NCBI GenBank assembly: GCA_963920765.1
Contig: OY987245.1
Span: forward strand, 7,766,727 to 7,830,726
Direction: 5' to 3'
Source of the DNA: Ulota crispa
Taxonomy: Eukaryota > Streptophyta > Bryopsida > Orthotrichales > Orthotrichaceae
Length of the DNA stretch: 64,000 nt
Under the pieces are notes generated by a model. That model did no database searches. It worked only from the letters and a program-made list of their open reading frames with translations, and was not told the origin of the DNA. The position numbers and the translations under genes are program-made. Positions 169-57,700 of the stretch are shown here, one piece after another (position 1 is the stretch's first letter; each line of letters starts with the position of its first letter).

Positions 169-474
169 AGGTAGGAGTACCCATAAGCGTGATTTTAAGG
201 TTTTGAACATGATAAATATTACTAAACGTCTCGCAAGTTATAAGTTCCTATTATCAATAGAAAAATAATGAGTTTGCACTTTTGAATTTATTATTTAGAT
301 ACTGTGAGAATAAGTTGTGAATTTTTAAAGAGCAAATTGCCATTATACCCATAACTACTATTAAGATTTCATGTTCACGTGTTGTACATCCTTATTATTA
401 CATGTATCTACAATTTTTCAAGATTTCAGAGGTCACGCTTATGGAGACCCTCACAAGGATGGGTGCTCCTACCT
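169..474. mobile_element. AGGTAG-type MITE, copy A1
   Basis: A 306-bp element lies between two TA dinucleotides (167-168 and 475-476), as expected for a Tc1/mariner-type target. The left end reads AGGTAGGAGTACCCATAAGC and the right end is its imperfect inverse, ending GGGTGCTCCTACCT. The right arm carries a short insertion that repeats part of the terminus. There is no coding capacity. Other copies with the same end and core are at 4320-4627, a right half at 36688-36908, and the intron of the protease gene at 43.5 kb. Confidence 0.75.
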
Positions 475-4319: not shown

Positions 4320-4627
4320 AGGTAGGAATACCCATAAGTGTCAGTGTCTTGATAACCGTCACCTTTGAAATCTTGGAAAATATGTAAAAATAAATAGATG
4401 TAATTACAAGGATGTACAACATGTGAACATGAAACCTTAATGTTGGTTATGGGTGCAATGGCAATTAGTTCTTTAAAAATTCACAACTTATTCTCACAGT
4501 ATCCAAATAATACATTTGAAAGTGTAAACTAATTTTTTTTCAGTTCCTAATAAGATTCTTGCTAGTTGTTTATTAATAGTCATCATGTTGGAAACCCTTA
4601 GTTTGACGTTTATGGGTGCTCTTATCT
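4320..4627. mobile_element. AGGTAG-type MITE, copy A2
   Basis: A 308-bp element between TA dinucleotides at 4318-4319 and 4628-4629. The left end is AGGTAGGAATACCCATAAGT and the right end the inverse form GGGTGCTCTTATCT. The interior matches A1 in inverted orientation (for example ATGTAATTACAAGGATGTAC). Confidence 0.75.
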
Positions 4628-25160: not shown

Positions 25161-25484
25161 AGGTAGTGTGCTCATAAACCGTCCATGTAAGGGCTGAAAC
25201 TGAATTTTGGGAGTTGAAACTTCTTAAAGCATTTTTCAGTAAGTTTTCCTTGAAAGACAAGAAGAATTGACGTTTAATTTAAGTTATTTCATATTTTTTG
25301 GAGTTTTGTGGAATTAGTTGTGAATTTTTGAAGTGGAAAGGCCATAGGTTTCTAAAACCATCCACCTCCTCAAATGTATATTCCTTTTACATTTGAAAAC
25401 CTATGAAAAAAAGCATGTACAACAAGGGTACATTTGAGAAGGTGGGCAGTTTTAATGCCTGGATGGTTTATGAGCAGACTACCT
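25161..25484. mobile_element. AGGTAG-type MITE, 324 bp
   Basis: TA at 25159-25160 and 25485-25486. The left end AGGTAGTGTGCTCATAAACC is matched by the inverse of TGAGCAGACTACCT on the right. The arms share sequence with the compound element in the SET-2 intron (AGGGCTGAAACTGAATTTTG). Confidence 0.8.
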
Positions 25485-36687: not shown

Positions 36688-36908
36688 TGCATTAGTGTCC
36701 CCATAACCGTCACTTTTAAAATTTAGGAATTTTTTTAAAAGTAAATAGATGTAATTACAAGGATGTACAACACGTGAACATGAAACCTTAGTGTTGGTTA
36801 TGGGTACAATGGCAGTTTGCTCTTTAAAATTCACAACTTATTCTCACAGTATCCAAATAATACATTCAAAAATGTTCAAAATCCTTAAGCTTATGGGTGT
36901 TCCTACCT
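36688..36908. mobile_element. AGGTAG-type MITE, right part (copy A4)
   Basis: Interior CCATAACCGTCACTTTT and the right end TTATGGGTGTTCCTACCT before TA match copies A1 and A2. The left end was lost where the TTAA-type MITE is inserted. Confidence 0.65.
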
Positions 36909-42484: not shown

Positions 42485-44660
42485 ATGGCGAATTGCTTAT
42501 GTCTTTCACCATCGTCCACGCTCCACACACACCTAATGATCCCTTCCCAATCCTCCTCCCCTCAAGCTTACTACCGAAATCCATCCTTGTATCCAAAACC
42601 CATCACTTCTACCAATATTAGGTCTCGTACTTCACCCTTGAATGTCACAAGAGTCATAGTATCTGCAAGCCAATCCAAAAACCCTGCAACCTCTTCCTTC
42701 TCCTCTCCAAACCTCAGTAGCAGTCATTCTCGGTTACAAATAAACCCTAGATCACGCCCTTTAGACCCATCAATCAAGCATGTCTTGCAAGACGACACTC
42801 CAACAGAGCTTGCACCACTCGAAGCAGAATTCATGGAAGCAGAATTGATTGAAGCAGAAGATATTGCCACGTCATCAGTAGCAACAAGCATTGAAACCTT
42901 CCAGAACGAAGCATGGAACCACAGGTTTTTACTGGCACTAGCCGGTTTACCGGGCATTTTTTCAGGCTTAGAGACCTCCGGATCGGTAATCCAATCCCTC
43001 GCAGTATTAGCAGCGGTGATCACCGTCCACGAGGCAGGCCATTTCTTCGCAGCGAGGCTACAAAGGATCCACGTCACCAAGTTCGCGATAGGGTTTGGGC
43101 CAACCCTAGCGAAGTACCAGGGGAAAGAGGTGGAGTACTCCCTTCGAGCGATCCCGCTCGGAGGCTACGTGGCATTCCCCGACGACGATCCGAATTCCGG
43201 ATTCCAACCGGACGATCCAGATTTGCTGAAGAACCGGGGCATTCCCGCGCGCGCTCTCGTCATCTCCGCCGGAGTACTCGCGAACATCGTGTTCGCGTAC
43301 TCGGTTCTCTTCGGGCAAGTGTTGTCGGTAGGGTTAGTCGAACAAGAGTATTTGCCAGGTGTCATCATCCCGGAGATCATCGCCAGATCTGCGGCGTCTC
43401 GAGGCGGACTCGAGGCGGGTGACGTTGTGTTATCCGTCGGTGGACGAACCCTAGAAAAGAACGTCGGCGCGGTGTTCGATCTCGTGGACACAATTAAGGT
43501 GTGTACACCCATAAGCGCCAGTTTATGGGTGCCGAAGTGATGGTTGTGGGTGAGGGAGTGATGGTTATGGGTGATGAAGTGATGGTTGTGGGTAACAAAG
43601 TGGTGGTTTTGGGTGACTAACATGATAATTTTGATTGCCTCATCTCACTACAGTAGTACCTGGCTAAGATGAACTTGTGTAAGAAAAATGCTTGGATAAG
43701 ATCACTGTCCCTGACATGGAAGTGGCCCAGCAGGTTCATTATTGGGGAGCTTCAAGGGGTATTTGACTACAATGAATGCTCTCTTAAGATGAAATGAATA
43801 TTTTGTCCAGATACCTTCATCTTAGCCAGGCACTACTGTATTTAAGAACCATTAATAAGCATTGTTGTTTTTAGCATCTTTTACACACAACTAAACAATT
43901 TTAGTGATTTTGGACTTGTGAAAAATCTTTGTGAACAAATGCTTGGAATTGGAACTTTGAAATTGATGCCAATTTTTTTGGGTTTCCTCTTCCTTCCTAA
44001 CTTGACAATATTATTTTCAAAGTTCATCAATTAATTTTCCTACTCCAAAATCCTTGGTTTGACGCTTATGGGTGTACATACATACCTCAGGACAACCCGG
44101 GGAGAACACTGGATTTCGAGGTTCGACGGCCGGGATTCTCCGACCTTTTGAACATTAGAATCACGCCGGATCTGGCCTACGATGGAGCTGGTAAAATTGG
44201 AGTGCAACTCTCGACGAACGCAAGGTTGCACAGAGTGAAAGCGACGAACATCGGCGAGGCGGTGAAGAAAGCGTCGAAGGAGTTCGTGAGGCTGACAACG
44301 ACGGTCACCGATGGACTGAAGCAGGTGTTCTTCAACTTTGCTCAGACGGCGGACAAGCTGTCTGGCCCCGTGGCGATTGTGGCCGTGGGTGCTGAGGTGG
44401 CGCGGTCTGACGTGGCGGGGTTGTTCCAGTTCGCGGCCATTGTGAATATTAATCTTGCTGTGGTGAACATCTTGCCGTTGCCTGCTCTTGATGGCGGCTA
44501 CTTGTTTCTGATTGTGCTGGAGGCTCTGCGTGGGAAGAAGCTCCCTGAGGGTGTGGAGAAAGGGATCATGTCGTCGGGGATTTTGTTGTTGCTTGCGGTG
44601 GGGGTGGTGCTCATGGTGCGTGACACTCTCAATCTAGGTATCGTGCAGCAATTGTTGTAG
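42485..44660 (+). CDS. Chloroplast M50 metalloprotease, ARASP/RseP-like (site-2 type)
   Basis: A zinc protease of the site-2 family, expected in a plastid membrane, that cleaves substrates within the bilayer. Exons 42485-43498 and 44091-44660 (phase 0) give 527 residues. Residues 1-100 look like a transit peptide, followed by a Glu-rich segment. HEAGH at 182-186 is the zinc/catalytic HExxH within the first membrane helix. PLGGYVAF at 224-231 and a membrane stretch at about 255-285 follow. A PDZ-like part (LPGVIIPEI, GGLEAGDVVLSVGG) spans about 290-375 and contains the intron. LPLPALDGG at 466-474 provides the second metal-ligand motif (Asp472), and further membrane segments end the protein. 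All catalytic residues are present. The start context CCATGG is good. The sole intron is a transposable element (separate entry), and the last codons plus 3' UTR are repeated downstream. Confidence 0.93.
43537..43618 (+). repeat. 21-bp tandem repeat, 4 copies
   Basis: GTGATGGTTGTGGGTGAGGGA and variants start at 43537, 43558, 43579 and 43600, just inside the left arm of the intron element. Confidence 0.85.
43651..43838. mobile_element. pogo-like MITE nested in the protease intron, 188 bp
   Basis: Ends CAGTAGTACCTGGCTAAGAT and the inverse CAGTAGTGCCTGGCTAAGAT continue for 23 bp with one mismatch. TA stands on both sides. CAGT-type ends with a TA target match pogo/Tigger-type Tc1/mariner elements. 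Confidence 0.85.
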
Positions 44661-54774: not shown

Positions 54775-57700
54775 ATGAGTTTGATAAGGACAAACTCCGT
54801 AAGGAGTTCTGTGGAAAGTGAAGCATCGGGTGTGAGGATAAACCTGCGGTACTTGAAAGGAGAAATCGATCACGCCGTGAAAACGAATGTGGATGCGCAT
54901 ATGAGTGGCACGCCGCTTCTGTCTGTTCCTAGTGCTGAGACCAACCATGCCATGGCACAGCGTGAATGCGACTGCTATGTGAGAGGAAGGGAGACCTGCT
55001 CCGGTGCTTGTGCATGCCGAGCGACTATGAAGGTCTGTGCTGTCACGTGCAACTGCCATGGCTTCTGCTGCAACAGCCTCGTGACCATGCCGAAGCTGGA
55101 CGTGCGAGGGGGCGCATTGGGACAGGAGTTGTACACTAAAGATGACCTTCCCCAACAGAAAGTTGTGTTCGTTGTGTGTGGGCAGATCCTCACCGAAGCG
55201 CTGTTTCATGATATTGCCATGATCGACCCCCGGCGTTGTTACTACGGTGTGAGAGTCTCGTGGCCTGGGTTCACTAAGGACGTGCCAGGTGAGCCTGGCG
55301 AAGTCAAGTTTGTCGTGGATCCTTGGAGCCATTTCTCCGGAAGAGTGAACCACAGCTGCGATCCTAACACGGCTGTTAGCCCTTGGTAAGCAAACAAGTA
55401 AGCTAAGCAAGTTTATTTTCAGTTGATAAGGTAAGGTAGGAGGCTCATAAACCGACCATCTAAGGGCTGAAACTGAATTTTGGGAGGTGAAACTTCTTGA
55501 AGTATTTTTCAGTAAATTTTCCTTGAAAGACAAGAAGAATTGACATCTAATCAAAGTTGTTTCATATTTTTTGGAGCTTTGTGGAATTAGTTATAAAATT
55601 CTGAAGTGAAAAGGTCATAAACAATTCACCTCCTCAAATGTACTATGCTTGTATATTTTTGAGACCTACTCATAACATTTGATAGCCTGAAGAGAGGCTG
55701 CCTTTCCCTCTCTTCAAGTATCATCCACAAACTTCATCTTGACAAAAAAAAAAAAAAAAAAAAAAATCTTTTTTTTTCTTTTTTTTATTAATTTTCTGAT
55801 ATGTCTGGCCCCTCAACATGTGTGCATTGAACTAAGCCTCCCTTTCATAAACTCTGACAAATTCAGCCAAGTGTCCCCATAGCTAAAGAAGGATATGGAA
55901 TATTCTACATCATTCTCTTGGAAGGAGGGTAGCCTTTACTAGTGCTACTAAATGTTATGTATGAAAAAGAGCATGTACACATGAAATACATTTGAGAAGG
56001 TGGACGGTTTTAGAGCCTGAGCGGAATATGAGCCTCCTACCTTAGGAGGCTCACATTCCACTCAAGCTCTAAAACCATCCACCTTCTCAAATGCACTCTC
56101 GTACATGTTGTTTTTCATAGACTTCAATATCGTGCAAGTAGTGTATGTTTGAGGAGGTGGACGGTTTTAGAGCCCTACGCCACTTCAACTTCAAAATTTC
56201 ATAATTGATTCCACAAGCTCCATAAAATATGAAATAACTTGGATTAGATGCCAATTCCTCTTGTCTTTCAAGGAAAATTTACCGAAAAACATTTCAAAAA
56301 GTGCAGTTTCAGCCCTTAGATGGTCGGTTTATGAGCCTCCTACCTTTGCTTGCAATGTTTGAATGGGAGATCATTGATAGGTTTTATGACCATGAATGAT
56401 ACAACCAAGATTCTAGGGTTGATTGTTTACAATGTTTGAATGGGAGGTAAATGACTGGTTCATGAGCTTGATACATTGGAGGATTTGGGTTTGGAATTGG
56501 CAGATCACAAACCTTCAAGTATCCAGAGGTGCAAGCTGATGACAGTCTGTGGCTCATGCAGTTGGGCGGACGGCAAGGTATATGCTGTGGGTAGGACTCT
56601 CCGCAGAATCCTCTCCAAAGAAGCGGTAACAGTTGATTACAAGTAAGTCATTTGCAGAGACGCCTAGTAGATTAGGATTTCTGATTCTGCATCAAATAAC
56701 AGGGGTTTAGGAGTATGCACTGACATCCAATAGATAAGGGTTTAGGTCTCTGTATCAATGAGGGTTTAGGATTATGCACCGATATCCAATAAATTAGGGT
56801 TTCTGATTCTGCATCAAATAACAGGGGTTTAGGAGTATGCACCGACATCCAATAGATTAGGGCTTAGAATTCTGTATCAATGAGGGTTTAGGGTTCTATA
56901 TCAATGAGGGTATAGGAGTATGCACCGGCATCCAATAGGTTAGGGTTTAGGATTCTGCATGCACTAATGAGGGTTTACGATTATGCACCGACATCCAATA
57001 GATTAGGGTTTAGGATTCTGTATCAACGAGGGTATAGGATTTTGCATCAATGAGGGTATAGGATTCTGCATCAATGAGGGTATAAGATTCTGCATCAATG
57101 AGGGTATAGGATTCTGCATCAATGAGGGATTAGGATTCTGCATCAATGAGGGTTTAGGATTATGCACCTACTATACATCTAATAGATTAGGGTTTGGATT
57201 CTGTATCAATGAGTGCATGTAAGAACGGTGTACTTGAAAATGCCTAAGAAATTGGAAAACGGCATAACAAGGGACTCGTAGTGGAAACATTTGTGTAGAT
57301 GGACGGGAATCACCGACGGACCTGTCGCCGAGCTCTGTTTCTGCCGATCGAGTCGATGTCGTGGCGTCATTGCCGATCCCAGCAGCGATTTCATGGAGAG
57401 GAGCATCCGCCACTACGAGAACGAGCGAGACCGGCTGAAGGAGTTCCACGACGACGAAGACAAGTCGCTACAAGACCGAATCGAGACCATGGACGCCGAA
57501 ACGAAGAAGATACTCTCAGTACCCCAGCAACTGAGCCTCACTCGAAGTCTCGACAAGAACGACAAGCTTCAACTCGCCTGCGACAACATCACCGTTGCAG
57601 TAAAGAGAGCTACGGACGCCATGTCCATCGCTCGACACGCCAAGTGCGCGGAGAGAGCAACTCAATATGCAAGGAAGCTAAAGAACTTGGACTGCAATCC

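Follow-up and report, generated by a model that had tools for sequence, protein, structure and literature searches.

A site-2 protease gene with a single intron in its coding sequence

The window, that is, the whole stretch of 64,000 nucleotides analysed here, comes from the genome of the moss Ulota crispa, in an assembly of 275 Mb whose eleven largest contigs together comprise ~271 Mb. It contains a gene for an ARASP/RseP-like M50 site-2 protease with matches to the PDZ domain in Pfam (Table 1); the top named match in a homologue search is a protein of the moss Ceratodon purpureus, at 75% along its entire length, and none of the proteins listed is near-identical. The two exons join in phase 0 to give a protein of 527 amino acids, the start of which resembles that of the Ceratodon protein, whereas the unspliced reading reaches a stop after 13 more codons past exon 1. 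At the join, DTIK^DNPG (the caret marks the join here and below), there is no gap within 6 residues on each side in any of the 120 homologues listed, the best 120 of 2188. The intron is poorer in G+C (38%) than the exons (52% and 55%).

Table 1. Coordinates of the features in the window and of the related loci elsewhere in the assembly (a slash marks an element, duplication or splice boundary)
Feature	Coordinates	Strand	Details
Window	Ulota crispa contig OY987245.1, 7766727-7830726		moss genome
Exon 1, protease coding sequence	42485..43498	+	338 codons; Pfam Peptidase_M50, E 4.1e-58; from translation and homologues
Putative intron, GT...CAG, phase 0	43499..44090	+	from the frame and homologue alignment
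Exon 2, protease coding sequence	44091..44660	+	ends at stop TAG; from translation
Candidate branch point, TTGAC	44059..44063	+	fits YTNAY, the branch-point motif rule; 28 nt upstream of the acceptor
TA-inserting MITE, termini AGGT...ACCT	43497..44087		591 bp; ~401 bp without the nested MITE
Left target duplication, TA	43495..43496		from sequence
Left terminal inverted repeat	43497..43520	+	bases 1-4, AG/GT, form the donor
Right terminal inverted repeat	44060..44087	+	extra ACAT near the end
CAG acceptor	44088..44090	+	altered right target site, TAAG expected; from sequence
21-bp tandem repeats in the protease MITE	43526..43617	+	4.4 copies
Second MITE, nested, including its TA duplications	43649..43840		ends TA/CAGTAGTACC...ACTG/TA
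Free MITE, related termini	169..474		TA/AGGTAGG...CCTACCT/TA
Free MITE, related termini	4320..4627		
Partial free MITE	36688..36908		right terminus ...CCTACCT/TA
Element in the protein kinase gene (L074)	C5	minus	425 bp; GK^VY
Element in the plastid-type ClpP gene (L075)	C5; positions 732-1414 of locus L075	plus	683 bp; CK^AD
Abutting element pairs	C1:22800405, C3:6874885, C4:2384638, C4:23815244, C7:2946208, C7:16390366, C9:13524410		

The protease intron consists of one MITE containing another

An earlier note on this DNA described the only intron of the protease gene as a MITE whose inverted ends coincide with the splice sites, with the donor GT being bases 3-4 of the element, the CAG acceptor lying in the host flank just past its other end, and the exons joining in phase 0 into an unbroken protein. 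This description holds, with 'only intron' applying to the coding sequence, which is a complete frame of two exons; the ends of the element and of the intron are 0-3 bases apart, and the intron includes three bases outside the element on the right and none on the left. Positions 43497-43516 read AGGTGTGTACACCCATAAGC, the inverse of which is found at 44064-44083, followed by ATACCT up to the end of the element; with the extra ACAT, the right terminus reads ACATACATACCT. Complementarity between the two 22-nt end arms is 91%. The same note placed the insertion in ATTA/AGGAC, which fits on the left, where the TA duplication is kept, but not on the right, where CA stands in place of TA and the flank reads CAGGAC versus the expected TAAGGAC, a difference of one lost and one altered base, both of them within the intron.

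The element belongs to a large family. The 20-base family end has 499 and 520 matches in the genome at up to 2 mismatches, compared with 0 for the reversed control, and a typical genomic copy reads TA/AGGTATGTACACCC...GGGTGTACATACCT/TA, with TA on both sides in 58 of the 68 copies that have both ends (the protease copy, itself TA/CA, is one of the 68). The family consists of many short copies with terminal inverted repeats and no coding capacity seen, that is, of MITEs; its termini presumably do not match the consensus ends of Stowaway elements. Without the nested element, the interior of the protease copy is 87-91% identical to fetched family copies in 25 of the 27 longer matches (77% and 82% in the other two). 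When up to 3 mismatches are allowed, the window contains 3 matches to the family end AGGTATGTACACCCATAAGC, two of them being the ends of the protease element, against 0.00 expected from shuffles. That the boundaries of the intron resemble MITE ends by chance is, given this family-wide identity of the interior and the empty control, exceedingly improbable.

Compared with the majority sequence of its subfamily, the protease copy differs at 21 of 335 positions (6.3%), within the range of 22 other copies that were chosen by similarity to it (3.9-8.4%); thus, the protease copy is not fresh, although the exons stay open. The copies that match it internally lie elsewhere in the genome. The free copies in the window, which the earlier note took to match its termini, do share the AGGT...ACCCATAAG end scaffold but represent a different terminal subtype; they are relatives of the protease MITE and not its direct source subfamily.

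The nested MITE shares 92-93% identity with three further copies in the genome and 70% with a fourth one. Given the family membership of the outer element and the presence of this second one, the intron is one MITE containing another. The CAGT...ACTG ends and TA duplication of the nested element are of the terminal type described for moss Tc1-like elements (PMC4054914).

Two more coding exons contain elements with the same termini

All 63 exact genomic ends consisting of GGGTGTACATACCT followed by TAAG were screened for coding sequence past the TAAG; the earlier note had suggested a search for exon-embedded copies with the same termini. Two of the 63 lie inside coding exons, one in a protein kinase gene and the other in a gene for a plastid-type ClpP.

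In the kinase gene, the exons join as ...MIGQGAFGK^VYEALW..., in what we take to be the glycine loop; TA is present on both sides of the element, and the right side reads TAAG/GTTT. The joined frame consists of 200 + 153 codons and matches the Pfam kinase domain with an E-value of 8.8e-29, whereas the unspliced reading runs into stops. Homologues from Ceratodon and other sources are continuous at this point: among the 20 homologues used of the 120 listed, the join is gap-free over 4 residues on each side in 19, and the remaining one (P0124) does not cover it; at 6 residues on each side, none of the 20 is gap-free, owing to a gap in the alignment that lies 5 residues beyond the join. For this element, 39 other matches of full or nearly full length are listed, at 84-91% identity.

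In the ClpP gene, the join is ...GMGIYDAMKLCK^ADVSTVCFGLAASMG..., presumably in the active-site region, again with TA on both sides and with TAAG/GCGG on the right. The joined frame encodes a complete ClpP of 318 amino acids with no other intron (Pfam CLP_protease, E 2e-70), and the join is gap-free in all 120 homologues listed, as well as in the two PDB alignments shown. Three successive versions of the right end are present in this element (...CATACTTTAAAACG, ...CATACCTGAAGGCG, ...CATACCTTAAGGCG), so that the ClpP copy has a history after insertion. One of the inner versions is similar to the edge of the exon, as though a later duplication had taken along the first exon bases.

The kinase and ClpP elements belong to a shared subfamily (76%, 89% and 86% identity over the three longest pieces); the ARASP copy was compared with them by its termini. 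Because both genes keep the TA duplications and the TAAG targets, predicted removal of the segment from AG/GT to TAAG/ restores each exon to the base. The uninterrupted target would be GGTAAGGTTT and TGTAAGGCGG at the kinase and ClpP sites. At the protease site, the conserved Ile-Lys-Asp codons suggest the target ATTAAGGAC; the alternative of ATTAGGAC with one transition makes the spliced frame one base longer, which the gap-free alignment opposes. When searched as DNA against their own assembly, neither the protease nor the kinase gene has a match other than itself; therefore, at the sensitivity of this search, there is no empty paralogous site.

Copies in coding exons are rare

Altogether, besides the window's own copy, 150 ends followed by TAAG or CAG were screened, 2 of which are in coding sequences, for a total of three coding-exon copies. 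In addition to the 63 exact ends, the screen covered 2 near-matches, 5 CAG ends (four of them in L089-L107, a set that also holds 15 TAAG or near-TAAG ends; the fifth is L174), 60 ends of a broader subtype and 20 of the 98 TAAGG[AT] ends. These 60 lie on contig C1 and come from 88 listed ends that were not part of the other sets; genome-wide, this pattern has 615 TAAG ends, 100 of which were listed. Among the near-match, CAG, broader-subtype and TAAGG[AT] ends, there was no further clear exon copy, nor was there one among nineteen copies in L001-L038 that were not chosen for TAAG. In these one-sided screens, most flanks were judged on the acceptor-side open frame and G+C alone.

A wider test, in which the donor could lie as much as 14 bases ahead of the element and the acceptor as much as 60 bases beyond it, was applied to 164 end pairs from the longer loci (counted on both strands, with the window copy included and some elements paired repeatedly) and yielded no additional case. 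Ranked next after the window and the kinase were L046 and L085; their shorter sides span 72 and 63 codons, and their acceptor sides are low in G+C.

An open frame of at least 99 codons follows TAAG in six of the 63 exact ends, and four of the six (L076, L083, L090 and L096) were judged not to be exon insertions. L090, L106, L120, L129 and L180 were rejected because inspection by eye showed no coding frame in the opposite flank, and L090 is, moreover, repeat sequence. L076, in a gene that is aminotransferase-like by eye, and L083 look intronic; L010, one of the nineteen copies not chosen for TAAG, proved on closer inspection to be in an ordinary intron; L170, in an NDUFS7-like gene (by eye), and L169 likewise appear to be MITEs within ordinary introns. 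Several of these five seem to be located 13-50 bp upstream of the acceptor of such an intron. L096 lies 25 nt upstream of the ATG of a gene that is FAD-oxidoreductase-like by eye and was rejected likewise; in both L096 and L108, TAAG adjoins the end of the copy, and the edge of a 5'UTR intron is possible or probable there. With three coding-exon copies in the whole screen, these insertions appear to be rare survivors, with no sign of a mass invasion.

A proposed route from MITE insertion to intron

We consider it very likely that the protease intron originated when a TA-targeting, Tc1/mariner-type MITE inserted into a coding exon, and that elements with the same termini gave rise to introns in at least two other genes, those for the kinase and the plastid-type ClpP. 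In the proposed scheme, the duplicated TA and the terminal AGGT together would read TAAG/GT, such that the element would supply its own donor. A TAAG target would be duplicated to give TA[element]TAAG, and splicing of AG/GT to TAAG/ would leave the original TAAG. A TA duplication next to an intact AGGT terminus generates an AAG/GT donor at either end and, hence, in either orientation of the element; this donor is close to the plant 5' splice-site consensus. In the protease gene, the duplicated TAAG would later have become CAG inside the intron, and ACAT and the nested MITE would have been gained, with the frame kept.

The birth of the protease intron from a MITE, as put forward in the earlier note, is well supported by sequence comparison, namely, a family with TA duplications, ends 0-3 bases from the splice sites, a gap-free join and uninterrupted predicted proteins in relatives. 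The accompanying claim, that splicing would restore the exon exactly, fits the kinase and ClpP genes without alteration; in the protease gene, where the right flank has changed, exact restoration at birth can only be inferred. The unaltered form that the rule apparently takes in the kinase and ClpP is a stronger result than the protease case.

Of the relatives, P0008 (from a 15,327-base metagenome contig) and P0012 (from a 12,429-base one) have predicted proteins that are uninterrupted at the protease join. Prokaryote-style names or first residues not encoded by ATG suggest that these genes were called without regard to introns, in which case the genomic frame is probably continuous at the join in these relatives. 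Judging from these predicted proteins, the intron may be absent in these relatives.

These proteins also bear on a different history, in which an older phase-0 intron was present at the same codon, a MITE inserted into it, and later deletions left the MITE plus CAG. Elements of the family do sit in apparently ordinary introns (by eye, for example, L010, L076, L170 and L169), and the right flank in the protease gene is altered. However, the relatives' predicted proteins, encoded on large metagenome contigs, read through uninterrupted; the protease intron has just 3 bases beyond the MITE on one side and none on the other, with no remnant of an older intron; and in the kinase and ClpP genes, the element edges match the splice sites with the duplication kept, leaving the TAAG target as the only possible remnant. 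We therefore regard such an older intron as unlikely, and insertion into an exon as the preferred origin.

The order of events is inferred, as is splicing in vivo, the latter from the frame and its conservation. Within the joined exons, constrained motifs are conserved, while the elements are mutated, duplicated or invaded. In the predicted RNA of the protease intron, the terminal repeats form a basal stem (z -5.5), and this modeled pairing could bring the splice sites together or, conversely, hide the donor. Slightly less probable still than an older intron is that the insertions are recent and disruptive, with no clean splicing, and that the genes are broken alleles. The kinase could be such a recently broken gene, given that its element has intact ends and TA duplications, with 9-16% divergence from the 39 listed relatives. 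Nevertheless, the joined exons are open and conserved in all three genes; the protease copy lies 6.3% away from the consensus and has acquired a nested MITE; internal duplications are present in the ClpP copy; and there is no second close DNA copy of ARASP or the kinase in the assembly that could serve as a backup.

Comparison with introners and other transposon-derived introns

Introners, transposable elements that make introns, were surveyed across thousands of genomes by Gozashti et al. (2022; PMC9860276), whose account of the survey reports none in land plants. According to the same account, some introner types provide one splice site themselves and recruit the other (their Fig. 2C), family sizes start at 5, and previously described families have target duplications of 3-9 bp. 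The moss elements resemble introners as described there in that the ends of DNA transposons coincide with the ends of introns in several unrelated genes (ARASP, kinase, ClpP), one splice site comes from the element and the other is co-opted at the insertion site, and the predicted mRNA length is unchanged in the two clean moss cases. Sequence outside the element, such as would be seen in an ordinary old intron, amounts to 3 bases in ARASP and to the TAAG target only in the kinase and ClpP. Unlike the introners of that survey, the moss family resides in a land plant, generates a TA duplication and has 3 intron copies, versus many non-genic ones, in a screen that took in TAAG ends with perfect termini, a portion of the broader subtype and 5 CAG ends; the smallest family in the survey has 5.

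Introns that arose by transposon insertion, including maize Ds (Giroux 1994), the rice catalase case (Iwamoto 1998) and examples from other hosts, are tabulated in PMC3443670. The single plant cases listed there are similar in that an element in a plant exon is spliced as an intron; in the moss, by contrast, the donor is set by the terminus together with the TA duplication, in both orientations, and one terminus family hits at least three genes. Stowaway and Tc1/mariner MITEs, and the Tc1-like PpTc1 and PpTc2 of the moss Physcomitrella as described in PMC4054914, share with the Ulota family the TA duplication, inverted repeats, short length and lack of a transposase. PpTc1 and PpTc2 have CAGT...ACTG ends, unlike the AGGT...ACCT of the Ulota family, and the nested MITE does share them. 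MITEs located in introns and creating new splice sites are described in PMC12595863, PMC8227079, PMC5454002 and PMC12550479, the relevant passages of which contain no new introns bounded by MITEs. A literature search, covering mostly papers outside subscription journals, found no report of introners in a moss or any land plant.

The recurrence of the same, untouched rule in two other genes points to an introner-like family of plant MITEs. We find it fairly probable that this Tc1/mariner-type family is a working land-plant introner, in which every intact insertion would provide a donor in both orientations, insertions into TAAG in exons would be exactly spliced, and neutral introns would be added to conserved moss genes. 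The origin of new introns is a long-standing question; if the proposal is correct, three intron births have been caught in a moss MITE family, two of them with the target duplications intact, and ordinary plant MITEs can be pre-adapted to splicing by a base-level rule that combines the TA duplication, the AGGT end and a host AG. Genome editing is routine in moss, and direct tests would be possible there.

Other elements and arrangements

Two more elements in the window, at 25161-25484 (with TA on both sides) and 55434-56345, belong to other families that have AGGT...ACCT tips and different inner termini GCTCATAAA; in the joined-flank test of the window scan, neither is in a reading frame. Two copies of the protease MITE family are 1.25 kb long (L001, 269-1520, and L019, 1499-2751). 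No transposase-like frame was apparent in them by eye, and the open frames of at least 60 codons number two, of 67 and 70 codons, both in one copy. These stretches are possibly intermediates between MITEs and an autonomous element or, alternatively, two elements side by side. At seven sites in the genome (Table 1), element ends of opposite strands overlap at ...ACCTTAAGGT..., where one element directly adjoins another and only one TA separates the two; this shared TA suggests that elements insert into each other's TA duplication.
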